From an uncultured Clostridia bacterium (GTDB lineage Bacteria; Bacillota_A; Clostridia; TANB77; CAG-508), in assembly GCA_944388685.1 (NCBI GenBank), contig CALXJS010000038.1, positions 1 to 14,823 of the forward strand: a DNA stretch of 14,823 bases, in the 5' to 3' direction. Both the position numbers and the translations under genes were made by a program. Shown one piece after another: positions 181-14,823 of the stretch (its first letter is position 1; the number at the start of each line of letters is the position of its first letter). Below the pieces are notes generated by a model. It searched no databases, was not told where the DNA came from, and saw only the letters and a program-made list of their open reading frames with translations.

Positions 181-181
181 A

Positions 182-619
182 TTATTTTACCTCCCATACT
201 TCTGGTTTTTGTGCTTGGTTTTCATGTTCACTACCAGCATAAACTCTTAATTTTTTAGCCATTTTTCTACCTAAAGATGTATGTGGTAACATTCCTTTGA
301 TAGCTAATGTCATAGCTTTTTCTGGATTTTTTTCAAGCATTACTTTTGCAGGAACTTCTTTCATTCCTCCAATATAACCAGAATGATGTCTATAAACTTT
401 TTGATTTAATTTGTTACCTGTTAAGATAACATCTTTACAATTAAGGATAATTACATGATCACCCATATCAATGTTAGGTGTATATGTTGGTTTGTGTTTC
501 CCTCTTAATAATTTTGCAGCTTCTGTAGCAACTCTACCAAGGGGTTTGTTTGCTGCATCAATAATATACCATTTACTTTCTACTTCATTTGCTTTTGCAC
601 TATATGTTGTATTATTCAT
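182..619 (-). CDS. rplM: 50S ribosomal protein L13
   Basis: Codes for 145 residues, the usual length for L13, an early-assembly protein of the large subunit. Family signatures are visible: [16 protein letters not shown] near residues 17-32, [25 protein letters not shown] near 37-61, and the [21 protein letters not shown] segment near 109-129. The ATG at 619-617 is preceded by GGAGGG with good spacing. It is the first gene of the rplM-rpsI operon, transcribed leftward from a consensus promoter at 736-764 with a leader of about 110 nt. Confidence 0.97.
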
Positions 620-660
620 GATAATAATACCCTCCTATTATTATAAATTTTATATATGAA

Positions 661-702
661 ATTTAAATCTAAAACCACCGGGGAGAGATCTTATATTTAA
701 AT
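661..702 (-). promoter_or_regulatory. possible structured leader of rplM
   Basis: In the ~110-nt leader between the rplM promoter and its start, two copies of the self-complementary octamer ATTTAAAT (661-668 and 695-702) enclose a locally GC-richer stretch, which on the minus strand contains TCTCCCCGGTGG. The octamers can pair as a stem closing a 26-nt loop. L13 leaders that autoregulate rplM are known in Firmicutes, but I cannot confirm that this matches that family. Only the inverted repeat is directly seen. Confidence 0.3.
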
Positions 703-735
703 CATATTAACTAATAAATACATAATTGCTAAATA

Positions 736-764
736 ATTTTAATACAAAAATGGCTATTTGTCAA
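736..764 (-). promoter_or_regulatory. sigma-A promoter of rplM-rpsI
   Basis: On the minus strand, -35 TTGACA (764-759) and -10 TAAAAT (741-736) are separated by exactly 17 bp. The predicted start is near 729. The -35 is a perfect match, as expected for a highly expressed ribosomal protein operon. Confidence 0.85.
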
Positions 765-791
765 TAATTTTAACAAAAAATTTCAAAAGTA

Positions 792-820
792 TTGAATAAT
801 TTAGTAATTAAATTTATAAT
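792..820 (+). promoter_or_regulatory. sigma-A promoter of the flippase gene
   Basis: -35 TTGAAT (792-797), 17-bp spacer, -10 TATAAT (815-820), divergent from the rplM promoter. The predicted leader is about 95 nt to the ATG at 924. A second TATAAT at 873-878 lacks a good -35. Confidence 0.7.
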
Positions 821-923
821 TAATTCGTACAATTAAAAAGAAATACATCACAATATGGACATAACGAAACGATATAATGAGTGAAATATAGATAAGAACA
901 ATATAGAAAACAGGAGGGATTAG

Positions 924-2562
924 ATGACGCAGACAGCAGAAAAAAAAGTTTCTAGAGGGAAGAAAGAAACTTTTATGCAGGGGATTGTTACATTAATATT
1001 TTCGCAATTGCTAATAAAACTGCTTGGACTTGTATATAACTTATATTTAACAAATAGAGAAGGATTTGGAGACCAGGGAAATGGAATTGTTTCAGCAAGC
1101 TATCAAATTTATGCAGTATTATTAACCATTTCTTCCACAGGTGTGCCAAATGCTATATCAAAATTAGTATCAGAAAGAGTGGCAGTAGGAGACCACAAAG
1201 GAGCTTATAGAATTTTTAAGATTGCTTTTGCAACTTTTGCAGTAGTTGGTTTAGTAGGTAGTTTAATGCTCTTTTTTGGAGCTGGAATGATTGCAAATCA
1301 ATGGTTACAAATACCGGATGCAGAGATGACAATGGTGGCACTATCTCCAGCCGTATTTTTTGTGGCTATTTCATCTGTTATGAGAGGATATTTTAATGGA
1401 AGACAAAATTTAAAAGTAACAGCAAGATCACAAACTTTAGAACAAATTTTTAAAACAACACTTACCATTATATTAGTAGAAATTGTTGCGATTATATCAA
1501 ATACATCTACTGTATGGATGGCAGGAGGAGCAACATTAGCAACAACTCTAGCAACTTTTGTTGGATTTGGTTATTTATATTTATTCTATAAAACGAGAAG
1601 AAGAGAAATTGCAGCTGAAATAAGAGAAACAGTAAATTACAAATATGAAAGAGTTAGAAATATTGTAAAGAAGATTTTATTAGTATCTATTCCAATTGCA
1701 CTAACTGCAATTATGTCTTCACTAAATAAAAATATTGATTCTTTTACCGTTGTAAGAAGTCTAAAACAATTTATGAGTGAAGATATGGCAATATCACAAT
1801 ATGGAATATTAGGAGGAAAGGTTGATACATTAACCAGTTTACCATTATCTTTTAATGTGGCTTTTGCTACGGCATTGGTTCCAGCCATTTCAGCCGCAAA
1901 AGCAATAAAAGATTATAAATCTATAAAACAGAAATCAACTTTTACATTATTGATGTCAATGTTAATTGGACTTCCATGTACAATTGGCATGTGTATATTT
2001 GCAGGACCAATACTAAATTTGCTATATCCAAATGCAAGTTCAGGAGAATTGGTATTACAAATTAGTTCATTTACCATCATTTTTACAATATTAGACCAAA
2101 CCATTAATTCTATTTTGCAGGGATATGGAAAATTGAGAGTACCAGCAATGGCATTAGGATGCCGGTGTGATTGTGAAATTAATTTTAAATTTAATTTTGG
2201 TTCCAATACCTTCAATAGGTGTTAATGGAGCAGCAATTGCGTCAGTAGCATGTCATTTGGTAGCCTTCGGAATTTCAATTATGGCATTAAAGAAAACCAT
2301 TAGAATAAAACTAGGCTTGAAACGATTTGTTATTAAACCAATATTAGCAACCGCAATTATGGCAATTTGTTCATATTTTGTATATTCTATACTTTTAGGA
2401 ATAATTGCTGAAAAATTGGCTACAATAATAGCAATCGTATTTGCAATTATTATTTACGGAGCAGCAATCATAGCTTTACGAGTATTTTCAAAACAAGAAA
2501 TAAAAATGTTGCCAGCTGGAAATAAAATTTGCATGATACTAGAAAAGTTAAAAATATATTAA
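924..2562 (+). CDS. SpoVB/MATE-like polysaccharide (lipid-linked sugar) flippase, split by a frameshift
   Basis: A multi-pass membrane protein of the oligosaccharide flippase / stage V sporulation protein B branch of the MOP superfamily. These move undecaprenyl-linked sugars or wall precursors across the cytoplasmic membrane. Typical landmarks are the N-terminal GIVTLIFSQLLIKLLGLVYN helix, STGVPNAISKLVSE near residue 71, and MRGYFNGRQN followed by the SQTLEQIFK loop. ATG 924 has AGGAGG at 912-917. The frame breaks near 2160: removing the T at 2160 changes GGATGCCGG to GGA GCC GGT and joins ...VPAMALG to AGVIVKLILNLILVPIPSIGVNGAA, as expected for the family. The joined product is about 545 residues, normal for SpoVB-like proteins. 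As written, frame 1 stops at 2225, and the rest is read from 2161 to 2562. This could be a pseudogene or a sequence error. SpoVB versus another flippase cannot be settled here. Confidence 0.85.
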
Positions 2563-2619
2563 TTTTTCAGAAAAAAAAGAAGGATTTTATATATTTTTGG
2601 CGAATAAATTTATATAGTA

Positions 2620-2654
2620 GTACATTTATTGCGGGATTTAAGCAATAAGGTACA
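2620..2654 (+). promoter_or_regulatory. inverted repeat upstream of hup
   Basis: TTATTGC (2626-2632) and GCAATAA (2642-2648) are perfect inverted repeats around a 9-nt loop. Outer GTAC sequences on both sides extend the match to about 12 bp with one mismatch or bulge. It lies about 30 bp before the hup start and ends before the AGGAGG at 2671-2676. It could be a 5'-UTR hairpin or a protein-binding operator; I could not place a convincing hup promoter relative to it. Confidence 0.45.
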
Positions 2655-2684
2655 TAACATTATACTTTATAGGAGGTAATTTAA

Positions 2685-2963
2685 ATGAACAAAGCTGAAT
2701 TAATCGCAGCAGTAGCTGCAAAAACAGGAGACACAAAAAAAGCAGCTGAAGAATCAGTAAATGCATTCGTAGAAGTTGTAACAAATGCTTTAAAAGAAGG
2801 AGATAAAGTTCAATTAGTTGGATTTGGTTCTTTTGAAGTAAGAAAAAGAGCAGCTAGAAAAGGTAGAAACCCACAAACTAAAGAAGAAATCAAAATACCT
2901 GCATCAAAAGCTCCAGTGTTCAAAGCTGGTAAAGCATTAAAAGATTTAGTAAACAAAAAATAA
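2685..2963 (+). CDS. hup: HU family DNA-binding protein
   Basis: 92 residues, the standard HU length. HU is a dimeric nucleoid protein that bends DNA with two beta-ribbon arms. The sequence begins [28 protein letters not shown], carries the family core [24 protein letters not shown] near residues 45-66, and ends with the [20 protein letters not shown] helix region. The start is fixed by AGGAGG at 2671-2676. It is monocistronic in appearance: a terminator follows 40 bp after the stop. HU-type proteins assist several site-specific recombination systems, which may matter for the switches downstream, but that link is inference. Confidence 0.96.
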
Positions 2964-3003
2964 TGAATAAATAAAGTATATAAATATATGAATCGATAAT
3001 AAT

Positions 3004-3054
3004 AAAAGCGACAAATAAGTATCTGAAATGTTAGATAATTGATTTGTCGCTTTT
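3004..3054 (+). terminator. Rho-independent terminator of hup
   Basis: A 13-bp perfect inverted repeat, AAAAGCGACAAAT (3004-3016) and ATTTGTCGCTTTT (3042-3054), with a further internal TATCT/AGATA pair in the loop. The T run on the plus strand follows the GC-rich stem. The A run on the left could let it act on the minus strand as well. Confidence 0.8.
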
Positions 3055-3095
3055 GCGTACTAAAATATTATAAAAAAGTTTGATTAAAATTTTAA

Positions 3096-3274
3096 GAAGA
3101 CCTAATCTGGAGATATTATATATATTATATTTTAAGCGGGTTTCGGGGGAACCGACACGCTACATACTGTTATGAAATCAGTGACAGTTCTGTGGGAACT
3201 GATTTCGTTACAGTATGTAAAGTGTTGGGATAGCGAAAAATATAATATATATAATATCTCCAGATTAGGTCTTC
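3096..3274. repeat. 179-bp nested palindrome with 38-bp perfect arms (MITE-like or structured RNA)
   Basis: Left arm 3096-3133 and right arm 3237-3274 are perfectly complementary over 38 bp (outer ends GAAGACCTAATCTGGAGATA and its complement, inner part AT-only). Inside is a second, in-register hairpin. CCGACAC (3152-3158) pairs with GTGTTGG (3222-3228, one G-U), then TACATACTGT (3161-3170) with ACAGTATGTA (3210-3219), then GAAATCAGT (3174-3182) with ACTGATTTC (3198-3206). An asymmetric G-rich segment with GGTT/AACC potential occupies 3138-3153. No coding frame is present. It sits between convergent hup and aspS, 21 bp from the aspS stop, so it might also end aspS transcription. A miniature transposable element, a folded ncRNA, or a double-strand-forming terminator all fit; no clear target-site duplication abuts the ends. 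Confidence 0.75.
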
Positions 3275-3295
3275 AAGTTAAATATATAATAGAAG

Positions 3296-5053
3296 CTATT
3301 TTTTATCAATCATAATATGCACATCGCGTAATTGATCACGTCTTACATTACTTGGTGCACCCATCATTAAATCTTGTGCTTTACTATTTAATGGGAAAGC
3401 AATAACCTCTCTAATCGTATCAGAATCGGTTAAAAGCATAAGCATTCTATCAATTCCTGGTGCAATACCAGCATGTGGAGGAGCACCAAATTGAAAGGCT
3501 TTATATAAAGCACCAAATTTATTTTTTACTTCTTCCTCTGTATAACCAGCCATTGTAAAGGCTTTAAGCATAATATCAATATCATGGTTTCTAACAGCAC
3601 CAGAAGAAAGTTCAATACCATTACACACAATATCATATTGATAAGCTAAAATATCTAAAGGATTTTCGTTTTCTAAGGCTTCTAAACCACCTTGTGGCAT
3701 TGAAAATGGGTTATGACTGAAACCAATTTTTCCATGCTCATCGACCTCAAACATTGGAAAATCAACAATCCAACAAAATTTAAAGATATTGTTGTCAATT
3801 AAACCAAGTCGTTTGCCAAGTTCATCTCTAATTTGTCCAGACAATGTTTCAACAACCCCTGGAACTTCAGCGATAAAGAATAGACAATCTCCTGATTTTG
3901 AATTTGTTCTTTTACACATTTCAATTCTAGCGTCATCTGGTATAAATTTTGCAATAGGACCTTGGAAGCTTCCATCATCCAAAATTCTAAGCCAAGCTAA
4001 TCCCTTAGCTTTTAAATCTTTGATAGCATAATCTGTCATACCTTCGAAAAAGCTCCTTGGCTCATTTGCAACATCATGTGTGGCAATAATTCTAACGATT
4101 TTACCTTGGAAAGCACGTAAATCCACATGGTCAAAAATGTCTGTAACATCAACAATTTCCAAAGGGTTTCTCAAATCTGGCTTATCAGTACCATATTTTA
4201 GCATTGCCTCTTTATATGGAATTCTTGGGAAAGGATATCCTTCAATTTTTTTATCTGAAAAAGTTTTAAAAGTATTATACATCACAGGTTCTATTGTATT
4301 AAAAACATCCTCTTGTGTGGCAAAACTCATTTCCATGTCTAATTGATAAAACTCTCCAGGAGCTCTATCTGCTCTAGCATCTTCATCTCTAAAACATGGT
4401 GCAATTTGGAAATATTTATCAATTCCAGAAACCATCAACAATTGTTTAAATTGTTGAGGAGCTTGTGGCAAAGCATAAAATTTTCCTGGGTGTAGTCTAC
4501 TAGGAACTAAATAATCTCTAGCACCTTCAGGAGAAGAACTTGTAAGGATTGGTGTTTGTACTTCTAAAAATCCTTGTTCAATCATTTGTGCTCTAATGAA
4601 TTGAATAACTTTTGCACGTAATAATAAATTATTTTTTAATCTATCATTTCTTAAGTCAAGAAAACGATATTGTAATCTTAAATCTTCTCTAATCTCTTGA
4701 TTTGTATTGATTTCAAAAGGAAGATTTTGTGTTCTTTTTCCTAAAATTTTAATATCCTCAATACGGATTTCTACCAAACCAGTTTTTAGTTTAGGGTTAA
4801 TGGTTTCTTCATCACGTTTTTTTACAGTACCATAAACTGTTACAGTAGACTCAATTGGAATATGTGAAGCAAAATCAACATCTTCTGCTTTCCCAGAGGT
4901 TACAACTTGGGTAATTCCGTACATATCACGAATATCCAAGAAAACTAACCCACCTAAATCTCTGATGGTTTGTACCCATCCACTAATTCTTACTTTTTTT
5001 CCCACATCTTCTAATGTGATTTCATTGCAGTTGTGTGTTCTGTACTCATTCAT
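3296..5053 (-). CDS. aspS: aspartyl-tRNA synthetase
   Basis: A 585-residue class II synthetase that charges tRNA-Asp (and tRNA-Asn if non-discriminating). The N-terminal OB-fold anticodon-binding domain spans about residues 1-110 (VRISGWVQTIRDLGGLVFLD). Motif 2, FRDEDARADR, is at 221-230 and motif 3, GIAPGIDRMLMLL, at 529-541. The length indicates the bacterial type with the GAD insertion in the middle. After motif 2 it reads APGEFYQLDMEMSF, a variant of the more usual QPEFTQ. Residue 33 is Leu where some non-discriminating bacterial enzymes carry His; this is suggestive only. ATG 5053 has AGGAGGT upstream. The gene is under a T-box leader and its own promoter. Confidence 0.96.
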   Translation of the reverse strand: MNEYRTHNCNEITLEDVGKKVRISGWVQTIRDLGGLVFLDIRDMYGITQVVTSGKAEDVDFASHIPIESTVTVYGTVKKRDEETINPKLKTGLVEIRIEDIKILGKRTQNLPFEINTNQEIREDLRLQYRFLDLRNDRLKNNLLLRAKVIQFIRAQMIEQGFLEVQTPILTSSSPEGARDYLVPSRLHPGKFYALPQAPQQFKQLLMVSGIDKYFQIAPCFRDEDARADRAPGEFYQLDMEMSFATQEDVFNTIEPVMYNTFKTFSDKKIEGYPFPRIPYKEAMLKYGTDKPDLRNPLEIVDVTDIFDHVDLRAFQGKIVRIIATHDVANEPRSFFEGMTDYAIKDLKAKGLAWLRILDDGSFQGPIAKFIPDDARIEMCKRTNSKSGDCLFFIAEVPGVVETLSGQIRDELGKRLGLIDNNIFKFCWIVDFPMFEVDEHGKIGFSHNPFSMPQGGLEALENENPLDILAYQYDIVCNGIELSSGAVRNHDIDIMLKAFTMAGYTEEEVKNKFGALYKAFQFGAPPHAGIAPGIDRMLMLLTDSDTIREVIAFPLNSKAQDLMMGAPSNVRRDQLRDVHIMIDKK

Positions 5054-5084
5054 ATTTCTTACCTCCTATAAATTGTTAGGGCAC

Positions 5085-5116
5085 AAAAAAACGCCCTTTG
5101 CAAAAATGCAGGGACG
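5085..5116 (-). terminator. T-box attenuator terminator of aspS
   Basis: On the minus strand, CGTCCCTGC (5116-5108) pairs with GCAAAGGGCG (5101-5092), with small bulges, and is followed by seven U (5091-5085). It lies directly downstream of the conserved T-box motif and 30 nt before the aspS start, the standard place for T-box terminators. Confidence 0.85.
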
Positions 5117-5336
5117 AAATCAATCCGCGGTACCACCCAGCTTGAAAATTAAATGAATTTTATCAATAGTTTTAATGTATTGATTACTTTTAATTTTCCA
5201 CTTTATTAAAAACTGCTCCAATGTGTTTCACAAATTTAGGTTGACCTTAAAGGGCTTTCAGCCGATGACCCTCATTCTCTAAAAGTAACTTCTAAATGCT
5301 TTCATTGTACAAACGCAATAATATTTTAAATTGTCA
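5085..5336 (-). ncRNA. T-box riboswitch leader of aspS
   Basis: The minus strand holds the invariant T-box motif GGGTGGTACCGCGG (5138-5125) just before an attenuator terminator. Upstream is a stem I region with AGAGAATGAGGG (5280-5269), CGGCTGAAAGCC and the TTGGAGCAG element (5221-5213). Uncharged tRNA pairs its anticodon with the specifier loop and its CCA end with the T-box bulge, favouring antitermination. The specifier strand between CTAAA and TTGGAGC contains no GAC or GAU; AAC (5227-5225) stands at a specifier-like position, but I could not fold the stem with certainty. Confidence 0.93.
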
Positions 5337-5342
5337 AGTACT

Positions 5343-5371
5343 ATTTTACACAGTTTATGTATTTTTGTCAA
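5343..5371 (-). promoter_or_regulatory. sigma-A promoter of aspS
   Basis: Minus-strand -35 TTGACA (5371-5366) and -10 TAAAAT (5348-5343), with a 17-bp spacer. The start is near 5336, giving a leader of about 283 nt that contains the whole T-box. A second TTGACA nearby (around 5337-5332) has no matching -10. Confidence 0.85.
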
Positions 5372-5383
5372 GAAATATACATG

Positions 5384-5413
5384 AAAAAATCCTAGAGTTA
5401 GATACTCTAAGAA
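5384..5413 (-). terminator. left-arm hairpin of switch 1, terminator on the minus strand
   Basis: TAGAGT (5393-5398) and ACTCTA (5404-5409) pair across a 5-nt loop. Beyond that, 5392/5410 is a C-A clash on the plus strand but a G-U pair on the minus strand. On the minus strand the hairpin is followed by six U (5389-5384). It would stop transcripts leaving the cassette leftward, before they reach the aspS promoter region. Confidence 0.6.
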
Positions 5414-5583
5414 TATTTCTAATTGAAATTATATAAATAAATACCATAGATAGCAATAAAAAATGAAAAAATAGTAAAAAATTTTTTTGATGGTTAATAA
5501 AAAAATTTTGAAAAAGAAAGAAACTGTAACTATATAAATTTCAATAAGTTTTTTAGTTTCATAATTTCCTAGAGTATCTAACT
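5396..5583. repeat. invertible-promoter cassette 1 (predicted)
   Basis: The left arm AGTTAGATACTCTAAGAA (5396-5413) and right arm (5566-5583) are inverted repeats matching at 17 of 18 positions, enclosing 152 bp. Inside, a promoter at 5428-5456 points left, away from the surface-protein gene at 5694. A weak AT hairpin, GAAACT (5520-5525) with AGTTTC (5555-5560), precedes the right arm. Geometry and position match the three other cassettes in this window. It would be ON after inversion. Unlike cassettes 2 and 4 it also holds a possible rightward promoter: TTGAAA 5508-5513, 17 bp, TATATA 5531-5536. Confidence 0.7.
5428..5456 (-). promoter_or_regulatory. promoter inside cassette 1, pointing away from the gene
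   Basis: Minus-strand -35 TTGCTA (5456-5451), 17-bp spacer, -10 TATAAT (5433-5428). The start would be near 5421, about 8 bp inside the left arm. Confidence 0.65.
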
Positions 5584-5693
5584 GAAAGAAAAGATAAAAA
5601 GTTGAAAAATGGCATAAAATAGCAATTTATAGCAAAAAGCTAGAATTTAAGAAATAGTTAGACAAAAGAAAATAAAGAGAAAGAGGTTAAAAA

Positions 5694-7466
5694 ATGAAAG
5701 AAAAATATGTGAAGAAAATTATTAAAAAATCTGAAATAGAAACAATAAAAGTAAATACAAATGCCAAAAGGACAATACATAATTTGAAAAAGAAAAAACA
5801 AGATAAAATAAATTTTCAAATACAAAATCAAATAAGAACACAAAAAGGAATTACTTTATTGGCATTAGTTATAACAATTATTGTTTTATTAATTTTAGCA
5901 GGAATTACAATAAATGCTATCACAGGGGACAATGGAATTATAGGAAATGCAGGAAGAGCCAAAGAAGAAGCAGAAATAGCTAATGAGAAAGACATTTTAG
6001 AGAAAGCAACCGTGCAGGCAATGGGAAACAATAAATATGGAAATATCGAAGAAGAGGAATTGCAAGAGCAACTAGACAAAGAAACAGGAGAGAGAAAAAC
6101 AGAGGCAACAGATGTTGGAGAAGAGTTTGAGGTATTGTTTAAAGAAAGTAATCGATATTATGCAATAGATAAAGATGGGAATGTAGGAGAAGCAAATATA
6201 TATGAAGAAGACAAATATCCAGGAGATATTACTGTAGGAAAAGATGGAGAGAAACTAGATGGAAATACAGAAGAAACTGCATATCAAATTTGGTGTATAG
6301 AAGATTTGGTGTCATTTTGCAACATGGTAAATGGAGAAGGTATAAGACTAGAAAATGGAGAAGCAGTACCAATAACATATAGAAATAGCTTTGCCTCTAA
6401 ATATGTTGTACTAAAAGCAAACTTGAATTTTAAATCTAAATTGTCATATCAGAATAGTGAAAGAACAGACTTTGGGGATATTAATGGAAATACAGAAGAT
6501 GGGAATACTTTGATAAATGAAATGACAACAGGGACAGGTTTCAAACCAATAGGAAGAGATGGTACTTTTGCAGGAAATTTTGATGGAGAGAGTCATGAGT
6601 TAAAAAATATCTATATTAATCGACCAGAAAGTACAGTAGGACTATTTGGAACAATAGGTGGAACTGCTAATGAGGTGAATATACAAAATATAATGATTTC
6701 TGGAAATATGATAGGTAGTACAGGAGGTGGCATTGTTGGTTATGTGAATATGAATTCAGGAGAGTCAAAAGAAAATCCAATAATAATACAAAATTGTACA
6801 AACCAAGTAGCAATAGAAACGACAGATACAAGTGGAGGAATTGTAGGATCTCGATCAACTGGTGCTAAAACTAGAAGTCTAATTATTGCAAATTGTACAA
6901 ATAATGGAACAATTGAAGGAACAACTTCAGGAGGAATAATAGGGATGGCTTATGAAATTGTAAAGATTATTAACTGTTGCAATAATGGAAGCATAATCAA
7001 TAATCAAAATGGAAGCGGATATGCTGGAACAGGAGGGATTGTTGGAACTAGTATGTTTGAAATTGATATTATTAATTGCTATAATTTAGGAAATATAGAA
7101 TCAAAAGGAAATGCAGGAGGAATTATAGGATATTCGTATTGGGCAGAAAAAAGTATAGAAAATTGTTATAGCATAGGGGGAATATCTGGAAGTGTTGCTG
7201 GTGGTATTATAGGCGGGTTAAACTTAAGTAATGATTTACTAACGACAAAAAATTGCTATTATTTGAACACCAATATTTCAAAAGGAATTGGTGGTTGGAA
7301 TTCCAGTGCAGAGACATTGGAAGATATACAAGGAATTACAGGTACAGAAATGCAATCAAGTGAGATATTAGAAATATTCAATCAATATGTAACAGAAAAT
7401 AAAACAAAAGAAGGAATTGATTTGAAAAGATGGATAAAAGGAGAAAATGGTTATCCAATATTTTAA
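5694..7466 (+). CDS. pilin-like GLUG-repeat surface protein, paralog 1
   Basis: 590 residues. A basic 52-residue leader ends in the prepilin-like KG|ITLLALVITIIVLLILAGITI (G52, hydrophobic 53-73). This would anchor the protein and allow processing by a prepilin peptidase. The Glu usual at position 5 of the mature pilin is replaced by Ala. A charged stalk follows (about 74-190), then IWCIEDLV and a repeat region with six GGI(V/I)G motifs alternating with NCTN/NCYN units, the GLUG family pattern expected to form a beta-solenoid. It ends GENGYPIF. An adhesin or filament subunit role is inferred. The leader is 28 residues longer than in paralogs 2 and 4. AAGAGG at 5681-5686 sets the start. Expression is predicted to depend on inversion of the cassette at 5396-5583. 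Confidence 0.85.
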   Translation: MKEKYVKKIIKKSEIETIKVNTNAKRTIHNLKKKKQDKINFQIQNQIRTQKGITLLALVITIIVLLILAGITINAITGDNGIIGNAGRAKEEAEIANEKDILEKATVQAMGNNKYGNIEEEELQEQLDKETGERKTEATDVGEEFEVLFKESNRYYAIDKDGNVGEANIYEEDKYPGDITVGKDGEKLDGNTEETAYQIWCIEDLVSFCNMVNGEGIRLENGEAVPITYRNSFASKYVVLKANLNFKSKLSYQNSERTDFGDINGNTEDGNTLINEMTTGTGFKPIGRDGTFAGNFDGESHELKNIYINRPESTVGLFGTIGGTANEVNIQNIMISGNMIGSTGGGIVGYVNMNSGESKENPIIIQNCTNQVAIETTDTSGGIVGSRSTGAKTRSLIIANCTNNGTIEGTTSGGIIGMAYEIVKIINCCNNGSIINNQNGSGYAGTGGIVGTSMFEIDIINCYNLGNIESKGNAGGIIGYSYWAEKSIENCYSIGGISGSVAGGIIGGLNLSNDLLTTKNCYYLNTNISKGIGGWNSSAETLEDIQGITGTEMQSSEILEIFNQYVTENKTKEGIDLKRWIKGENGYPIF

Positions 7467-7494
7467 AAAAAGAGTATATGAATTTTAAAAATTT

Positions 7495-7929
7495 ATGATA
7501 ATAGAAGAAAAGGAGAGAAAACTAATCTTGACAGAAGACTTAGAAATACATATAATTGAGATACCAAAGATATATAAACTAGCAGGAGAAGAGCAAGAGG
7601 AAGAATTAGTAAAATGGCTAGAATTTATAGAAAATCCTGAAAGTAAGAAGGTGGAGAAGTATATGAAAGAAAATAAAGAGATGAAAGAAGCAAAAGAAAA
7701 GTTAGAAGTGATGAGTGAAGATGAAAGAATGCAAATCTTGGCAGAGTTAAGAGAAAAAGCAATTAGAGATGAAAAAGCAGTGGAAAGATTTGGACTAAAA
7801 AAAGGAATAGAACAAGGAAGGGAGGAAGGCATAAAGGAAATTGCTAAAAAAATGAAAGAAGAAGGATTTGATATAAAAACAATACAAAATATAACAGGAT
7901 TAACAGAAGAAGAAATCAATGCATTATAA
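7495..7929 (+). pseudogene. C-terminal fragment of an Rpn/PD-(D/E)XK nuclease-family transposase
   Basis: The 144 residues match the C-terminal part of the Rpn family (recombination-promoting nuclease, PD-(D/E)XK transposase-like). Visible features are LTEDLEIHIIEIPKIYKL, the helical acidic WLEFIENPESKKVEKYM region, and the typical tail KKGIEQGREEGIKEIAKKMKEEGFDIKTIQNITGLTEEEI. The catalytic N-terminal domain is absent. There is an in-frame stop at 7486-7488 just upstream and no ribosome binding site before the ATG at 7495. It is best read as a 5'-truncated remnant stranded between paralogs 1 and 2. Translation as a small coiled-coil protein cannot be excluded. Confidence 0.75.
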
Positions 7930-7978
7930 TATTATGAAATTATAGATACAAGGAATAAAGAAAAAATATTTTTTATAC

Positions 7979-8009
7979 AAAAAAATTCCTTAAGTCGGAT
8001 ACTTAAGGA
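7979..8009 (-). terminator. left-arm hairpin of switch 2, terminator on the minus strand
   Basis: TCCTTAAGT (7987-7995) and ACTTAAGGA (8001-8009) form a 9-bp perfect stem with loop CGGAT. On the minus strand it is followed by AA and then a run of seven U (7985-7979). It faces the promoter at 8026-8054. Confidence 0.7.
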
Positions 8010-8025
8010 CACCAAAACTAAAGAT

Positions 8026-8054
8026 ATAATAGCAATAAAATGCAGGAAAGTCAA
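8026..8054 (-). promoter_or_regulatory. promoter inside cassette 2, pointing away from the gene
   Basis: Minus-strand -35 TTGACT (8054-8049), 17-bp spacer, -10 TATTAT (8031-8026). The start would be near 8019, about 10 bp inside the left arm. Nearly identical to the promoter in cassette 4. Confidence 0.8.
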
Positions 8055-8107
8055 TAGATAGAGAAGATAAAAATATAAAATTTAAACAATGAAAATAATA
8101 AAAAATG

Positions 8108-8165
8108 AAAAGCAGAAATCGCTTGTAAATAAAGAATAACAAGTGATTCCTGCTTTTTCTTTTTT
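8108..8165 (+). terminator. terminator inside cassette 2, facing the gene
   Basis: 8108-8126 pairs with 8139-8157 over 19 positions with one mismatch and one G-U (AAAAGCAG...CTTGT with ACAAG...CTGCTTTT), 12-nt loop. A T-rich tail (TTTTTCTTTTTT) runs into the right arm. It would block read-through from the left into the surface-protein gene in the present orientation, and would point away from it after inversion. Confidence 0.75.
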
Positions 8166-8292
8166 CCTTAAGTATCCGACTGAAAGAAAACATAAAAACG
8201 CAGAAATAGTGCAAAAATAGCGATATATAGCCAAAAAGCCAAAGCCCCAAAATGATTGGACAAAAGAAAATAAAGAGAAAGAGGTATAAAAG

Positions 8293-9969
8293 ATGAAAGA
8301 AAAATATGTAAAGAAAATTACTAGAAAGGATCAAATACAAAATCAGACAAAAACACAAAAAGGAATTACTCTGCTGGCGTTAGTCATAACAATCGTTGTC
8401 TTATTAATTTTAGCAGGAATTACAATAAATGCTATCACAGGAGACAATGGAATTATTAGAAATGCAGGAAAAGCCAAAGAAGAAACAGAAATAGCCAATG
8501 AGAAAGACATTTTAGAGAAGGCAACCGTGCAAGCAATGGGAAATAATAAATATGGGAACATCGAAGAAGCAGAATTACAAGGTGAGTTAGATAAAGAAAC
8601 AGGAGAAGGAAAAACAGAAGCAACAGATATAGGAGAAGAGTTTGAGGTATTGTTCAAGGAAAGTAATCGATATTATACAGTGGATAAAGATGGAAATATA
8701 GGAGATGTTCAAAAAATTATAAAAGATAAATATCCAGGAAACATAACAGTAGGAACGGATGGAAAAGAATTGGCAGGAAACGATCAAGAACCATATCAAA
8801 TTTGGTGTATAGAAGATTTAGTAGAATGGTCACAAAATTATTCAAATTATATGAATAATTATATAAATTTAGAGAGAACATTAAATTTTAATTCAAATTT
8901 ATCATATGTAGATGGGAAAATTTTAGGTTGTAACTCAGTAGAAGAATTAAAAGATTTATTAACAAATACATCTGGTAGTGGTTTTACGCCAATAGCCAAT
9001 TTTTCTAGCACATTTAATGGACAAGAATATGAAATTCAAAATATGTATATTAATACTGCAGAAAATGCAGGACTTTTTAATATTGCTAGTGGAAAAATAG
9101 AAAATTTAAAAGTTTCGGGGAATATAACGTCAACAGAAAATAGTGCGGGAGGAATAGTAGTTGGTATATCTACAGTTGGAATAAATTTGGAAATAAATAA
9201 ATGTGAAAATAGAGCAAAAGTAATTTCGTCAAAGAAAGCAGCAGGAGGTATAGCAGGAAATGGAAATGGAATAAAGATAACGAATTGTTATAATTACGGA
9301 GAAATTTATTCATATGGTACAGATAGAGCATATGATGATTATGTAACAGGAAGCGCAGGTGGAATTGTAGGAACACATTGTACAGATATTCAAGATTGTG
9401 GAAACGAAGGAAATGTATCAAGTACTATATCAGCAGGAGGTATAATAGGATATAAATATATGGGATTTAATATAGTAAATTGCTATAATAATGGAAAAAT
9501 TACAGGAACAACTTATTCTGGAGGAATTATCGGAGAAACAAAAGCAGGAACAGGGAATATTTATAATTGTTATAATACTGGAAGTATCTATTCAGACACA
9601 AATAGTGGAGGAATTGCTGGCTGGATATATTATAACACAACAGCATACATATATAACTGCTGTAATATGGGAACAATAAGTGGAAATCAAAGTATAGGTG
9701 GAATTATAGGAAGGTCTGGTGCAGGTACAGGTTCTTATACACAATATATGCCCATCATAAAAAATACATATTCTATGCCAGAAACATTAAATGGTATTGG
9801 AAACATTTCTACAAGTGAAATTATAACATCTGAAACAAATATAGAGAATATAATTAATACTTTAAATACATATATAAATAATACAGAAGATGAAGTCGAT
9901 AAAAGTAGTTGGAGAAATTGGAGCATTAATGAAAATAATAAAATATGTTTTATGACTGCAACAAATTAA
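8293..9969 (+). CDS. pilin-like GLUG-repeat surface protein, paralog 2
   Basis: 558 residues. The leader ends at G24 (TQKG), followed by ITLLALVITIVVLLILAGITI and a stalk nearly identical to paralog 4 (NIEEAELQGELDKETGEGKTEATDIG). The central part after IWCIEDLV differs from paralogs 1 and 4. The repeat region has seven GGI-type motifs (AGGIAGNGN, AGGIVGTHC, SGGIIGETK and others) with NCYN/NCCN units. The C-terminus, ICFMTATN, lacks the GYPxF ending of paralogs 1 and 4. AAAGAGG just upstream sets the start. Likely a membrane-anchored or pilus-like adhesin, with no enzymatic motif seen. Its own cassette at 7993-8181 is in the OFF orientation. Confidence 0.85.
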   Translation: MKEKYVKKITRKDQIQNQTKTQKGITLLALVITIVVLLILAGITINAITGDNGIIRNAGKAKEETEIANEKDILEKATVQAMGNNKYGNIEEAELQGELDKETGEGKTEATDIGEEFEVLFKESNRYYTVDKDGNIGDVQKIIKDKYPGNITVGTDGKELAGNDQEPYQIWCIEDLVEWSQNYSNYMNNYINLERTLNFNSNLSYVDGKILGCNSVEELKDLLTNTSGSGFTPIANFSSTFNGQEYEIQNMYINTAENAGLFNIASGKIENLKVSGNITSTENSAGGIVVGISTVGINLEINKCENRAKVISSKKAAGGIAGNGNGIKITNCYNYGEIYSYGTDRAYDDYVTGSAGGIVGTHCTDIQDCGNEGNVSSTISAGGIIGYKYMGFNIVNCYNNGKITGTTYSGGIIGETKAGTGNIYNCYNTGSIYSDTNSGGIAGWIYYNTTAYIYNCCNMGTISGNQSIGGIIGRSGAGTGSYTQYMPIIKNTYSMPETLNGIGNISTSEIITSETNIENIINTLNTYINNTEDEVDKSSWRNWSINENNKICFMTATN

Positions 9970-9992
9970 CCAAATACAATTTTGTTTTTTGC

Positions 9993-10019
9993 ATTATAGA
10001 AAATGTGATTTCCTATAAT
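9993..10019 (+). repeat. small hairpin after paralog 2
   Basis: ATTATAG (9993-9999) pairs with CTATAAT (10013-10019), then AAAT with ATTT after one mismatch, around a GTG loop. There is no T run, so it is not clearly a terminator. It precedes the stronger hairpin at 10025-10061. Confidence 0.4.
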
Positions 10020-10024
10020 CTAAA

Positions 10025-10065
10025 AAATAAGTCTTAGAGTTGATTACTCTAGGACTTATTTTTTT
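10025..10065 (+). terminator. terminator of paralog 2, doubling as left-arm hairpin of switch 3
   Basis: AAATAAGTCTTAGAGT (10025-10040) and ACTCTAGGACTTATTT (10046-10061) pair over about 16 bp around TGATT, followed by T through 10065. An A run on the left makes it usable on the minus strand too. The right half of the stem lies in the left arm of cassette 3. Confidence 0.85.
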
Positions 10066-10225
10066 ATAAATTATACCAATAAATAATGTATATAGCAAGG
10101 AAAATAGAAAATTTTAAAAAATATATTTTTTATTAAAACGTAATAAAAAAAAAAGTGAAAAAACGACGAAAGTATATAAATATCAACAAATAAGGAGAAA
10201 ATGTATTTTCCTAGAGTAATCAACT
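10038..10225. repeat. invertible-promoter cassette 3 (predicted)
   Basis: The left arm AGTTGATTACTCTAGGA (10038-10054) and right arm (10209-10225) are perfect 17-bp inverted repeats enclosing 154 bp. A strong promoter at 10070-10098 points left, away from paralog 3. The interior is very AT-rich and lacks the GC terminator of cassettes 2 and 4. The arms differ from the other cassettes at several positions, always on both sides. Confidence 0.78.
10070..10098 (-). promoter_or_regulatory. promoter inside cassette 3, pointing away from the gene
   Basis: Minus-strand -35 TTGCTA (10098-10093), 17-bp spacer ending in TGG, -10 TATAAT (10075-10070), so it also has an extended -10 (TGnTATAAT). Confidence 0.78.
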
Positions 10226-10365
10226 AAAAGAAAAACAGAAAAGACAGGAAATACTAAAAATACTATGAAAAAACGGATTTGGTTGAAACAAAAGGGAATT
10301 AAGAAAGAGGTATAAAGCTTGAAAAAGTAATTCTTTTTTAAACAGATTTATATTTTGGGAAAGGA

Positions 10366-11874
10366 ATGAGAACAAAGATGGAAGAAAGTAAAAAAGAAAC
10401 AAAAGAAAAAAGAATAAAAAGTAATAAGGGAATTACTATATTAGCCCTTGCTATTACAATTATCGTTTTATTAATTTTAGCAGGAATAACGATTAACACT
10501 TTATCAAGTGATAATGGAGCAATTATAAATGCTTCAAAAGCAAAATTTAGAACAGAAATCAGAGATATAGAAGAAAAAATAGAATTAGAAGAAATTAATC
10601 ATAATAATGGAGAAGATTTTCAGTTTGGATCTTTAAAAGATTTAATAGGGAGAGAAGATGCATATAATGAAATATTATATATGGAAGATGGAAAATTGGT
10701 ATACATAGAAGATAAGGTAAGTGAAAAGCAAGCTGAGTGGTTAGAAGAAATGGATATACAAGCGAAACAAAATATAATTCCTATTTATACAGGTGAGCAA
10801 TTCAAGAAAATAGGAACAGGAGAAGAAGTTACAATAGAAGAAGCAGGCGGAGAGACATACCAATTTAATATAGATAGTTATTATGTTTTACAAAATGATA
10901 TCAACTTAAATTGTAGTGAAGAAAATCAATGGACACCAATAGGAACACCATCAAATCCTTTTAAAGGAATAGTCGACGGAAAGAATTATAAAATAAAAGG
11001 CATATATATGGATGGTGGAGAATTTAAAGCATTATTTAATTATAATAGTGGAAAAATTCAAAATATTATTCTAGATGATGGATATATCAATGCTACAAAT
11101 TATATTGCAGGAATAGTAGCTATAAATAATGCAAATGCAGAAATTATAAATTGTATCAATCAAGTAGAAATACATGCAACATATATAACTGGAGGAATTG
11201 TTGGAAGAAATTATGGATTAGTAGAAAATTGTGAAAATAGAGCATATTTAGAATTGAGTTCTAATTCAGGAGGGATATGTGGAGATAATCGAAATATAAT
11301 AAGAAGATGCTTCAACTCAAGTGAAATATTATTAATAGATTGGGGGATAGGGGGGATTGCAGGAACAAATTTTGGAACAGTAGAAGAATGTTATAACTTA
11401 GGAAATATATTAGCACCTACAAGTTATGCAAGATATAGTAAAGGAGGAATCGTTGGAAGCAACTATGGAACAATTACAAGATGTTATAATTTAGCAACTG
11501 TAACAGGAAATACTTCTAATTGGAATATAGGAGGAATTGCAGGAAGTAATGAGCAAAATGGAATCATTGGATTTTCATATAATGCAGGAGAAGTCATTGG
11601 ATATAATACTGTCGGAGGGATTGCAGGAAATACCCCTGGAACAATTCGACATTGCTATACAATAGATACAAATGCAATGGCAGGTAGTGGTACTGAAAAT
11701 TTAGAGAATTGTTTACAATTGTCGGAAAAACAAATGAAAAACCAAGAAAATATAAAGTTGGAAGATGGAAGCACAACAACTTTTCTAGCATTATTAAATA
11801 AAGAAGAAGAATATTTTATGGAAGATACAGAAAATAAGAATAATGAATATCCAGTTTTAAAACAAAACAGTTGA
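10366..11874 (+). CDS. pilin-like GLUG-repeat surface protein, paralog 3 (divergent)
   Basis: 502 residues. KG at 21-22 precedes ITILALAITIIVLLILAGITI. The stalk (about 45-190) is unrelated in detail to the other three and is rich in Glu and Lys. The C-terminal half holds seven GGI-type motifs (TGGIVGRNY, SGGICGDNR, KGGIVGSNY, VGGIAGNTP) with NC/RC-YN units, ending EYPVLKQNS. The start is uncertain. The leader block that carries the start in paralogs 1, 2 and 4 here reads AAGAGGTATAAAGC TTG AAA AAG TAA (10319-10330), a dead start. ATG 10366 is preceded only by GGAAAGGA at short spacing, and ATG 10378 is an alternative. The gene follows cassette 3. Confidence 0.82.
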   Translation: MRTKMEESKKETKEKRIKSNKGITILALAITIIVLLILAGITINTLSSDNGAIINASKAKFRTEIRDIEEKIELEEINHNNGEDFQFGSLKDLIGREDAYNEILYMEDGKLVYIEDKVSEKQAEWLEEMDIQAKQNIIPIYTGEQFKKIGTGEEVTIEEAGGETYQFNIDSYYVLQNDINLNCSEENQWTPIGTPSNPFKGIVDGKNYKIKGIYMDGGEFKALFNYNSGKIQNIILDDGYINATNYIAGIVAINNANAEIINCINQVEIHATYITGGIVGRNYGLVENCENRAYLELSSNSGGICGDNRNIIRRCFNSSEILLIDWGIGGIAGTNFGTVEECYNLGNILAPTSYARYSKGGIVGSNYGTITRCYNLATVTGNTSNWNIGGIAGSNEQNGIIGFSYNAGEVIGYNTVGGIAGNTPGTIRHCYTIDTNAMAGSGTENLENCLQLSEKQMKNQENIKLEDGSTTTFLALLNKEEEYFMEDTENKNNEYPVLKQNS

Positions 11875-11933
11875 CAATTTCAAAATTGATTTTGAATAAG
11901 AAGGAAAAATTTAAAGATAATAGATAAAAAAGT

Positions 11934-11965
11934 AAAAAAAATTCCTCAAGTCAGATACTTAAGGA
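11934..11965 (-). terminator. left-arm hairpin of switch 4, terminator on the minus strand
   Basis: TCCTCAAGT (11943-11951) pairs with ACTTAAGGA (11957-11965) around CAGAT. The single imperfect pair (11947/11961) is C-A on the plus strand but G-U on the minus strand. On that strand a run of eight U follows (11941-11934). It faces the promoter at 11982-12010. Confidence 0.7.
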
Positions 11966-11981
11966 TACCAAAACTAAAAAT

Positions 11982-12010
11982 ATAATAGCAATAAAATACA
12001 GGAAAGTCAA
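11982..12010 (-). promoter_or_regulatory. promoter inside cassette 4, pointing away from the gene
   Basis: Minus-strand -35 TTGACT (12010-12005), 17-bp spacer, -10 TATTAT (11987-11982), about 17 bp inside the left arm. Confidence 0.8.
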
Positions 12011-12065
12011 TAGATAGAGAGAATAAAAATAGAAAAGAAAAAATTTTATAAAAAGAAAAAATGTG

Positions 12066-12123
12066 AAAAGCAGAAAACACTTGTAAATAAAGAATAGCAA
12101 GTGATTCCTGTTTTTTCTTTTTT
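12066..12123 (+). terminator. terminator inside cassette 4, facing the gene
   Basis: AAAAGCAG...CACTTG (12066-12083) pairs with CAAGTG...CTGTTTT (12098-12115), with two mismatches and one G-U, followed by a T-rich tail to 12123. Homologous to the one in cassette 2. Confidence 0.7.
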
Positions 12124-12250
12124 CCTTAAGTATCTGACTGAAAGAAAAGGAAAAAAATTAGAAATGGTACGAAAATAGCGAGATACAGCAAAAAAATTAA
12201 AGATTAAAAATTTTTAGACAAAAGAAAATAACAAGAAAGAGGGATAAAAG

Positions 12251-13958
12251 ATGAGAGAAAAATATTTAAAGAAAATTACTAGAAAGGATCAAATGCAAAA
12301 TCAAATGAAAACACAAAAAGGGATCACATTATTAGTATTAGTAATAACAATAATCATCTTACTAATTTTAGCAGGAATTACAATAAATGCCATAACAGGA
12401 GAAAATGGAATTATAGGAAATGCAGGAAAAGCAAAAGAAGAAGCAGAGATTGCCAATGAAAAGGAAATACTAGAAAAAGCGACGGTACAGGCAATGGGAA
12501 ACAATAAATATGGAAACATCGAAGAAGCAGAATTACAAGGTGAGTTAGATAAAGAAACAGGAGAAGGAAAGACAGAAGCAACAGATATAGGAAATGAATT
12601 TGAAGTAGTATTCAAGGAAAGTAACCGATATTATACAGTAGATAAAGATGGAAATGTAAGGGAAGTACAAGATATCGTAGAAGATAAATATCCAGGAGAT
12701 ATTACAGTTGGAACAGATGGAAAAACATTAGCAGGAACAGAAGCAGAACCATATGAAATCTGGTGCATAGAAGATTTGGTAACATTTTCTAACATGGTAA
12801 ATGGAGAAGGGATAAGACTAGAAAATGAAGAGCCAGTAGAGATAACAACAGTTAATAATTTTAGCGGAAAATATGTAGAATTAAAAACAAGTCTAAACTT
12901 TAAATCTAAGTTATCATATCAAAATAGTGAACGAACGGATTTTGGAGATATTAATGGAAATGCAGATGATGGAAATACATTAATGAATGAAATGACGACA
13001 GGAAAAGGATTTAATCCAATAGGAAATAATACAACAGGCTTTTTTGGTTATTTTGATGGACAGGAAAATGAAATAAGGAATATATATGAAAATACAACAG
13101 GATATATTGGCCTATTTGGTATGTGTTTTGGAAGTACTATAAAAAATATAGGAATTACTGGATATATGGAAACGACCATAGATACATATGCAGGAGGATT
13201 AATTAGTTATGCAATTCACACAACAACTGTTAAATGTGAGAATTGTTATACAGATATAACGATTGTCGCAAATAATGCTAATATGGTAGGAGGATTAATC
13301 GGAAGAGGCGGAACAATTAGTTTAGAAAATTGTTATAATATGGGAAATATAACAGCTACCAAAGCAAATGCAGGAGGTATAATCGGATATACCAATACAA
13401 CCAACATTGATGGTTGTTATAATCAAGGAGATATAATGGGAAGTTCTGCAGGAGGAATTGTAGGATATAGTTATTATAGTAGACCTCTAACTATTTTAAA
13501 TTCATATAATAATGGAAAAATAATAGGAACAAATGCAGGTGGCATAGTTGGTTACCAAAACGGAGTAGATTCTATTATAGAGATAAAAAATAGCTATAAT
13601 ATAGGAAATGTAACAGGAAAAAATGTGGGCGGAATTTTAAATAGTAATGTAGCTATTCCAACAATAGAAAATTGCTATAATGCTAGCATTTTAGAAGGTA
13701 GTAATATAGAAACTGCTATAATAGGATATGGGGCACGGAAATTATATATTACAAGGAAAAATTCTAAATTGTTTTTTTATAGATACAACAGATGTTTCTT
13801 GTATTTATACGATAGCAATAAATGATTCAACAAGCATGTCAAAAAATGAAATGCAAAGTCAAAGTTTTGTAGAAAAGTTAAATAGTTATATATTAAATAA
13901 TTCGAAAGATTGGAAGAAATGGAAATTGGAAGAAGAAGGATATCCTGTATTTGAATAA
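12251..13958 (+). CDS. pilin-like GLUG-repeat surface protein, paralog 4 (frameshifted)
   Basis: The leader ends at G24 (TQKG), followed by ITLLVLVITIIILLILAGITI and a stalk like paralog 2. The segment after IWCIEDLV (NMVNGEGIRLENE, LNFKSKLSYQNSERTDFGDINGN) matches paralog 1. There are six GG(I/L)-type motifs with NCYN units. As written the frame stops at 13825 after an aberrant tail. Removing one G from the GGGG at 13730-13733 restores IIGYGHGNYILQGK and continues to the stop at 13956-13958. That gives about 568 residues ending EEEGYPVFE, the same ending type as paralog 1. It may be a mutation or a sequence error. The ribosome binding site AAGAGGG precedes the ATG. Predicted OFF because of cassette 4. 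Confidence 0.82.
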
Positions 13959-13972
13959 CAAATACAGGATAT
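13940..13972 (+). terminator. hairpin overlapping the end of paralog 4
   Basis: ATATCCTGTATTTG (13940-13953) and CAAATACAGGATAT (13959-13972) form a perfect 14-bp stem around a 5-nt loop that contains most of the stop codon. No U run follows (TAAATAGTGG), so it may act as an RNA 3'-end stabiliser or weak terminator. The inverted copy lies outside the coding frame. Confidence 0.6.
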
Positions 13973-14467
13973 TAAATAGTGGACAGTATAGAATAAGATT
14001 ACTTTGTTGCCATTAGTGATAATAGGATTTTAATGTAAATAGCAATAAATTTACTGGAAATACTTGTAAAATATGAAAGTACATGATATATTATTAATAT
14101 AATTATTCGTCGTTAAAATTTAAATCTGAAAGTTATTTCTAAATAAAATCCTAGAAATGTTGTAAATCTATATAATTTGAAAACCAAAGAGGAAGAGTGT
14201 TTAAAACTAATTATAAAATCTTATTTCATTTTAAATCATAAAATTAAAATTATCATATTATTTCCTGTATTTTTATTCATTATAGATTGTATTCGAGGTT
14301 AATCAAAGTTTAAAAAATTATACAAATATTTTTATTTAGTAAGAATCTTTATAAAATATTCAAGATAAAATTTTAAAAATCAAAAAGATATATATAAATA
14401 CATTATATTAATTTTTATTGGAAGTAATTTTTAGATATTGTAATGGCAAATAATGTAAAATAAAAAC
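13973..14467. other. AT-rich intergenic region with no recognised feature
   Basis: About 495 bp with no supported gene, RNA or inverted-repeat cassette. A TAGCAA at 14040-14045 recalls the -35 of the cassettes, but there are no arms around it. No convincing promoter for the gene at 14481 was found; TTGGAA near 14419 has no -10 at proper spacing. Confidence 0.5.
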
Positions 14468-14480
14468 GAGGAGGAATTTA

Positions 14481-14823
14481 ATGAGTCAAAAGGAAAAAAC
14501 CAAAAAAGAAGAAAATTATTATCTCCAAAATTAGATGTGATTTTTCAAGTACTATTTGGAGAAGTAGGAAGTGAAAGAATTACAAAAAAATTTTTAGAAG
14601 CGATACTAGATGAACAATTAGAAGAAGTGGAGTTAAGTAGAAATATTGTATTAAGAAGAGAAAATTTAGAAGATAAAATGGGAATATTAGATGTGTTAGT
14701 AAAAATTGATAATGAAGAATATTGTAATGTGGAAATGCAGATGGTGGAAAAAGATAAATTATTAGAAAGAATATTATATTATTGGTCGAGAATATATGGA
14801 AAAAATTTAAAATCAAGCAATGA
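14481..14823 (+). pseudogene. Rpn/PD-(D/E)XK nuclease-family transposase, N-terminally frameshifted and cut by window edge
   Basis: ATG 14481 has a strong GAGGAGG (14468-14474), but its frame ends after 17 codons at 14532-14534. From 14519 another frame reads LLSPKLDVIFQVLFGEVGSERITKKFLEAIL, then MGILDVLVKIDNEEYCNVEMQMVEKDKLLERILYYWSRIYGKNLKSSNE to the edge. That is the Rpn / PD-(D/E)XK transposase family. The D of ILDVLVK and the E and Q of VEMQ are the nuclease core residues. One missing base, most likely in an A run (14494-14499 or 14502-14507), explains the break. Members cut DNA and promote RecA-independent recombination. Whether the C-terminus is intact lies outside the window. A sequence error remains possible. 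Confidence 0.8.

Follow-up and report, generated by a model that had tools for sequence, protein, structure and literature searches.

Four Promoter-Like Cassettes With Matching Inverted Ends, Probably Flipped by a Tyrosine Recombinase, Precede Pilin-Like Genes in an Uncultured Clostridia Bacterium

The stretch of DNA analysed here, in the following called the window, comprises 14,823 nucleotides (nt) of an uncultured Clostridia bacterium (NCBI GenBank assembly GCA_944388685.1, contig CALXJS010000038.1, positions 1 to 14,823 of the forward strand) and contains four cassettes of ~190 bp (188–191 bp) with matching inverted ends and a promoter-like site in the interior, one ahead of each of four paralogous genes. 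Judged from the sequence, each of these cassettes is very probably a separate DNA switch flipped by a tyrosine recombinase. Among related genomes, matching segments occur in either orientation, and each of the four genes is therefore probably turned on and off separately by DNA flipping. A candidate tyrosine recombinase, here named Rec, would pair the two ends of a cassette and thereby turn the promoter toward the gene or away from it.

Cassettes and Promoter-Like Sites in the Window

Cassette 1 (positions 5396..5583) is bounded by arms at 5396–5409 and 5570–5583, which match exactly over 14 bp and are longer if mismatches are allowed. The arms of cassette 2 (7993..8181; arms 7993–8009/8165–8181), cassette 3 (10038..10225; 10038–10054/10209–10225) and cassette 4 (11949..12139; 11949–11965/12123–12139) are exact over 17 bp each. 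Within the region 5301–14000 four such inverted repeats were observed, compared to a mean of 0.005 and a maximum of 1 in 200 dinucleotide-preserving shuffles, the criterion of exact 14-nt arms with arm starts 140–220 nt apart being identical for real and shuffled sequence. The distance from the cassette to the start codon is 110, 111, 140 and 111 nt for genes 1–4, respectively. An earlier note on this DNA, made from its letters, had described cassettes of this size 110–140 bp before their genes, all four in the OFF orientation, i.e., with the promoter reading away from the gene, and this description is borne out by the measurements in each of the four. The short segment between inverted repeats thus found is one hallmark of an inverton.

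The promoter-like sites all lie on the minus strand and read away from the genes. Cassettes 1 and 3 carry TTGCTA-17-TATAAT (5428..5456 and 10070..10098), and cassettes 2 and 4 carry TTGACT-17-TATTAT (8026..8054 and 11982..12010). The 17-nt spacing and the outward direction proposed earlier hold for all four; the proposed depth of 8–17 bp inside the left arm was slightly underestimated, as the −10 boxes end 18–19 nt from the 14-nt arm core. Among 108 cassettes collected from the window and its relatives (see below), the −10 box ends 16–21 nt from the arm core in 106 and the promoter spacing is 17 nt, likewise, in 106. The promoter score slightly favours a 17-nt spacing; applied to the other end of the cassettes, the same score returns 17 nt in 55/108 with scattered distances. 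By sequence, an outward promoter near one end only, a second hallmark of an inverton, is therefore present at a fixed place in 106/108. Over the whole region promoter-like sites are no more frequent than chance would give (41 versus 40.9 expected), and the argument therefore has to be made from position alone.

A shufflon or Vpma-type system, in which genes are swapped in front of a single promoter, was considered and rejected, every one of the four genes having its own cassette with its own spacer. If the four cassettes flipped independently, up to 16 expression states would result, as the earlier note proposed.

Orientation of the Cassettes in Related Genomes

Relatives were collected by searching species-representative genomes with aligned proteins, which left 77 loci; 97 further stretches were scanned later. 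The 77 loci are titled uncultured Clostridia, Clostridium, Eubacteriales or Bacilli, and three assemblies carry names that mark them as isolates from chicken; viral relatives were not confirmed. From 188 candidate cassettes, 137 after removal of duplicates, 108 were kept, all ahead of a pilin-like gene and including the four of the window. The other 29, mostly the same cassette read toward its other neighbour, were dropped as the downstream frame has no pilin-like start, among them a few that may be genuine cassettes ahead of a split gene or a gene of another kind (L180, L206, L246, L278, L282). The comparison of orientation in related genomes, named as a check in the earlier note, gave 99 OFF, 6 ON and 3 ambiguous cassettes. 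The six ON copies have their better promoter-like site just inside the right arm, where it reads into the gene; this is the placement that the earlier note had predicted to follow from inversion.

The inversion itself is best seen at one locus that is present in two genomes (L038, ON; L043, OFF). The interior is identical at 157/160 positions when aligned inverted and at 59/203 alignment columns when aligned directly, the flanks are collinear (left 91% over 1377 nt, right 97.5% over 1500 nt), and the inverted alignment spans exactly from arm to arm (9811–9998 to 9998–9811). Two further pairs show the same arrangement at larger distance: L018 (ON) and L009 (OFF) share an interior of 81% identity inverted and 22% direct, with flanks of 77% and 87% over ~1.5 kb, and for L026 (ON) and L064 (OFF) the values are 86% and 42%, with a right flank of 87% over 1.5 kb and just 103 nt of left flank available. 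Hence the proposed inversion is supported in relatives, where homologous cassettes occur in both orientations, as known for invertons, with the boundary of the closest pair exactly at the repeats.

Contig ends lie within 400 nt of a cassette in 14 of 95 cases compared to 4.3 expected (nine genomes; the set leaves out the matches in G122 and G131 and three stray matches in G003 and G006). This excess fits mixed orientations and repeats equally and was not used as proof. Two peculiarities were observed in L001, a contig of genome G001 that shares 97.7% identity with the window along 4.2 kb. At L001 1–330 a cassette 95% like cassette 1 of the window stands ahead of the upstream region of gene 3, the match starting exactly at the inner arm, which represents either a reassortment of cassette and gene or an assembly join. 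At L001 4378–4574 cassette 4 is longer by six bases than in the window, with a near-duplication in the right arm.

Putative Recombination Sites and Private Spacers

Each cassette end forms a small site of its own, composed of two inverted arms of ~9 bp around a 5-nt spacer. For the left sites of the 108 cassettes the consensus is TC.TagAGTt...TACTctAaGA, and 5 or 6 of 6 bases pair between outer and inner arm in 86/108 left sites and 33/108 right sites. In the window the spacers are TAGAT, CGGAT, TGATT and CAGAT for cassettes 1 to 4, each at both ends. With the ends paired by their arms alone, so that the spacers were unused in pairing, the spacer is identical at both ends in 92 of 94 cassettes, compared to 3.0% between cassettes, and 43 different spacers were counted. 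Within one genome the spacers are largely distinct (16 distinct spacers in 20 cassettes, then 12/13, 12/12, 9/11, 8/10 and 8/8; 4/4 in the window).

Many tyrosine recombinases need an identical crossover sequence, and the same spacer at both ends is therefore an expected mark of their sites. By their letters, the cassette ends look like recombinase sites and every cassette apparently bears a private 5-nt address. The spacer would be the crossover region or a part of it, and private spacers would stop neighbouring cassettes from recombining with each other.

The cassettes might also have been flipped once and now persist as remnants locked OFF in this strain. This is quite improbable. All four cassettes of the window and 95 of the other 104 are OFF, and gene 4 carries a frame break, as would suit such remnants. 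However, decay would erase both the identity of the spacers and the geometry of the promoter, which are kept in 92/94 and 106/108 cassettes, respectively, and the close relative G001 has an intact Rec. Moreover, a few per cent in the ON state resembles cwpV of Clostridioides difficile, which is transcribed by ~5% of cells (PMC4737114).

Terminator-Like Hairpins at the Left Site

A terminator scan of the minus strand showed that the left site together with a T-run has the form of a terminator-like hairpin in cassette 1 (5390..5412; 9-bp arms and a 5-nt loop), cassette 2 (7987..8009) and cassette 4 (11943..11965). In cassette 3 the left site folds within a longer hairpin (10024–10062). The folding energies of the left sites of cassettes 1–4 are −10.3, −10.3, −16.0 and −10.4 kcal/mol, respectively; the right site of the ON copy L038 folds at only −2.8 kcal/mol. 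Within 22 nt outside the left arm an A-run of at least five, corresponding to a U-run in the outward transcript, is found in 85/108 cassettes, and a T-run outside the right arm in 1/108. From these features the left site is predicted to act at the same time as a terminator for the transcript made in the OFF state: the outward-reading promoter would then direct transcription into the left site of its cassette, with arms and spacer folding as terminator. After inversion the promoter would lie just inside the right end, where there is no T-run, and would transcribe the gene.

Just inside the right arm, strong plus-strand hairpins followed by a T-rich stretch are present in cassette 2 (8107..8158; −21.9 kcal/mol, z-score −6.4) and cassette 4 (12065..12116; −15.5 kcal/mol, z-score −3.7). 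In cassettes 1 and 3 the stretches that were folded gave no such strong plus-strand hairpin. While cassette 2 is OFF, its hairpin is predicted to keep transcription from running on into gene 2, and in cassettes 2 and 4 alike this second hairpin would shield the gene from read-through.

With such folds at hand, the repeats could be thought to act as RNA only, with the arms competing for pairing in a transcription-attenuation leader and the DNA staying in one orientation. The folding of the left site as a terminator agrees with this idea, and arms that vary between cassettes yet pair within them also suit an RNA helix. However, the homologous interiors are inverted between related genomes, with the boundary of the closest pair at the repeats, and a folded leader alone is therefore insufficient. 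Moreover, the promoter-like site points away from the gene in 99/108 cassettes, so that the gene transcript would have to start elsewhere, and no Rfam match was obtained in the window at gathering scores. Taken together, an explanation by RNA only is highly improbable.

A Candidate Tyrosine Recombinase

A genome search for tyrosine or serine recombinases, suggested in the earlier note, identified both kinds (the tyrosine type as an XerD-like protein) in each of the six genomes examined; the protein is called XerD-like after its gene neighbourhood. Rec is a tyrosine recombinase by its match to PF00589 (Phage_integrase; 116.3 bits compared to a cut-off of 27.1) and by its R-K-H-R-H-Y residues, the catalytic set used for comparison, which align with those of the Int protein of PDB entry 6en0. 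This Int protein (6en0/6emy), which we take to be the Tn1549 integrase, is the closest solved relative of Rec by sequence, in an alignment that covers only Rec residues 142–307. Rec stays below the cut-off of all 11 NCBIfam models that it matched and therefore belongs to an unnamed clade. An assignment as XerC or XerD was discarded, since the scores (83.9 versus 335.15 and 69.9 versus 329.6 bits, respectively) are below the NCBIfam equivalog cut-offs.

In L008, L021 and L047, Rec follows downstream of a cassette-bearing gene of the GLUG type. Homologues with ~50–57% identity adjoin a cassette that precedes a gene for a predicted surface protein in L159, L160, L161 and L045/L155; L159 has two cassettes and two paralogues beside the Rec homologue, and in L160 the surface gene encodes a VWA protein, in which a tip-pilin-like domain scores below the cut-off. 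Overall, a cassette stands beside Rec in 4/41 Rec-family loci compared to 0/40 other integrase or resolvase loci (L078–L117), which are small numbers, and in 7 of these control loci a Rec copy is present, with no cassette in the retrieved stretch. In L120 a cassette beside Rec was found by a plain repeat search that was run on Rec loci and not on controls; a Fisher value for 5/41, which would combine both tests, is therefore not relied on.

Among 97 genomes of the same genus, the strict pattern ACTCTA gives at least three matches per strand in six, and precisely these six have a Rec of at least 76% identity. These six probably belong to one clade and are therefore not independent evidence. At E≤1e-60, Rec is found in 10 of 15 cassette-positive genomes versus 19 of the 82 others, a difference that is uncorrected for kinship. 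The 15 include genomes with a single unverified match (G122, G132, G135 and G171), and for the pattern ACTTAA, with 0–2 control matches per strand, a single match is no evidence alone. A looser pattern matched all 97 genomes, with controls equal or higher in most, and was set aside in favour of the stricter ones.

Rec is intact in G001 and also continuous in G110. In 6 of 8 close copies (G002, G003, G005, G006, G178 and CALXKD) the reading frame shifts at the same place, a run of 10–11 T before the catalytic C-terminal part; the T-run is present in G001 and G110, too. The interrupted copies are located at L047 11769–12699, L041 19285–20216, L021 4105–5035, L008 11970–12900, L100 855–1785 and L105 1093–2023. 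The ratio of non-synonymous to synonymous substitution rates (dN/dS) is 0.06–0.15 in the first part and does not exceed 0.04 in the second in any pairwise comparison, interrupted copies included. Both parts are thus under strong purifying selection, which is unlike a dead gene. The interruption might reflect a split protein, recoding, or slippage at the level of DNA or RNA. Furthermore, in a distant copy (L045 1649–2555; 55% identity in the first part) the frame breaks at that same residue in the absence of a T-run, so that slippage fails to explain this case.

Several observations weigh against separate switches flipped by Rec. The four cassettes of the window were found in the OFF orientation only, and all cassettes counted in the two closest genomes are OFF as well (10 in CASFHP, 11 in CALWZZ). 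The ON and OFF members of the pairs come from different metagenome-assembled genomes, not from one clone, and the other three ON cassettes (L139, L235, L281) have no close OFF partner, the best inverted match being 57–66%. Two cassettes (L003, L004) have mismatched spacers. Rec was not found in G004, the genome with the ON locus L038; as the XerD-like gene of G004 is at a contig end and Rec lies 4–21 kb from the XerD-like gene in four other genomes, this is possibly an assembly gap. Finally, the presence of XerD-like and serine recombinases in 6/6 genomes means that Rec is not the sole candidate.

It might thus be that the switches flip and that a housekeeping Xer-type protein or a serine recombinase does the work instead of Rec. 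Next to the enzymes just named, a further 327-amino-acid tyrosine recombinase in 5/6 genomes would be available for this, and the absence of Rec from G004, its interruption in most close copies and the 5 of 15 cassette-positive genomes without a Rec match fit such an assignment. In contrast, the location of Rec directly beside cassettes in several genomes and its enrichment in cassette-positive genomes, with the small numbers and the uncorrected kinship given above, argue for Rec. Another enzyme is therefore regarded as unlikely, if a serious contender, and Rec is likely the enzyme flipping the cassettes, as far as the sequences tell. More tentative, and somewhat less probable than not when taken as a whole, is the wider picture of a genome-wide bank of at least 20 adhesin-like genes behind invertible promoters with private addresses, in which the site serves as OFF terminator and one master tyrosine recombinase is gated by T-run slippage in most close relatives.

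The Four Genes and Their Products

All four genes are on the plus strand. Gene 1 (5694..7466) encodes 590 amino acids with a pilin-like N-terminus and a predicted beta-solenoid, gene 2 (8293..9969) encodes 558 and gene 3 (10366..11874) 502 amino acids, and gene 4 (12251..13825) reads on in another frame at 13728–13958. PF07581 (GLUG) is above its cut-off in genes 2, 3 and 4; gene 1 gave no Pfam GLUG match, though it can be aligned with genes 2–4. A hydrophobic pilin-type N-terminal helix, below the Pfam cut-off, is common to all four proteins. The prepilin N-methylation motif reaches 9.6–15.5 bits in genes 1, 2 and 4 compared to a cut-off of 21.2, and none was reported for gene 3. The earlier description as pilin-like GLUG genes was therefore retained for the repeats of genes 2–4 and needed correction for gene 1 and for the prepilin motif; a classification as type IV prepilins was rejected, the N-terminal methylation motif being under the Pfam cut-off. 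The frame break that splits gene 4 near 13728–13825 is shared by the near-identical L001 and is thus not the error of one assembly.

A model of the gene 1 product was built from four sequences and is fair to good only at about residues 310–510 (mean predicted local distance difference test score, pLDDT, 53.8). Its C-terminal half is composed of short strands in a beta-solenoid-like arrangement, with pLDDT 76–93 at residues 361–510. Among known folds it comes closest to 3n6z, a putative immunoglobulin A1 protease, but this match is weak (template modelling score 0.29 by query length), and no protease domain is claimed. The products are predicted to be pilin-like surface proteins with a beta-solenoid, which may function as adhesins. 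In L053, from 6440 onwards, a homologous cassette was observed ahead of a 3756-amino-acid open frame with the same pilin-like start. Among the literature matches listed, which are titles and starts of abstracts and leave subscription papers mostly outside, none reports an invertible promoter ahead of GLUG or pilin-like genes, which does not prove novelty.

Neighbourhood of the Array

The start of the window carries genes that, from their translations, we take to encode a ribosomal protein, a transporter, HU and AspS (aspS). At 3096–3274 a 38-nt perfect inverted repeat surrounds an inner hairpin; this looks like a small mobile or terminator-like element, of which there is a complete copy at L007 2502–2680 and a partial one at L062 18821–18957. 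Pieces of PD-(D/E)XK transposase-family genes (PF12784) are located next to the array at 7495–7929, matching the profile end only, and at 14537–14821, running off the window. Gene 3 of L001 contains a 2.4-kb insert with a recombinase match (L001 495–2888), which is absent from the window at 10458–10459 and presumably also carries a transposase.

Comparison With Known Systems and Significance

In C. difficile R20291, seven switch sites are described, with RecV being involved in six (PMC5903667). The cassettes resemble these RecV switches (cwpV, flagellar) as short, probably invertible segments before surface genes in Clostridia, with a tyrosine recombinase (here the candidate Rec) and mostly in the OFF state. 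In cwpV the switch sits between promoter and gene (PMC4737114), whereas here the promoter-like site is inside the segment. Moreover, just two of the seven R20291 sites share repeats (PMC5903667, PMC4737114), unlike the up to 20 cassettes counted per genome here, which share one site design with differing spacers. The Bacteroides Mpi promoters, similarly, combine a single enzyme with many segments, Mpi being a serine recombinase that serves at least thirteen regions (PMC5903667). In contrast, Rec as the candidate enzyme is of the tyrosine type, and each cassette has private spacers. For Clostridia-like strains a median of 3 invertons per genome is given (PMC11892184), with which the 20 cassettes, the largest number counted by sequence in one genome, are not strictly comparable. 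The same source describes inverton group 139 and invertase group 35, in which, as here, mostly Clostridia invertons lie near tyrosine recombinases (PMC11892184); to judge from this description, the cassettes of the window and group 139 may be the same family.

Invertible promoters as such are already known. The set described here is large and uniform, with one site design, 43 spacers and an apparent addressing code. Spacers that are equal within a cassette and mostly different between neighbours represent a natural experiment on how tyrosine recombinases read the crossover. Moreover, the economy of a site that would serve as terminator, together with an interrupted yet constrained recombinase gene, yields predictions that are testable by reads alone. 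Finally, with this cassette set the number of surface states of a cell could be counted directly, in a lineage that is uncultured.

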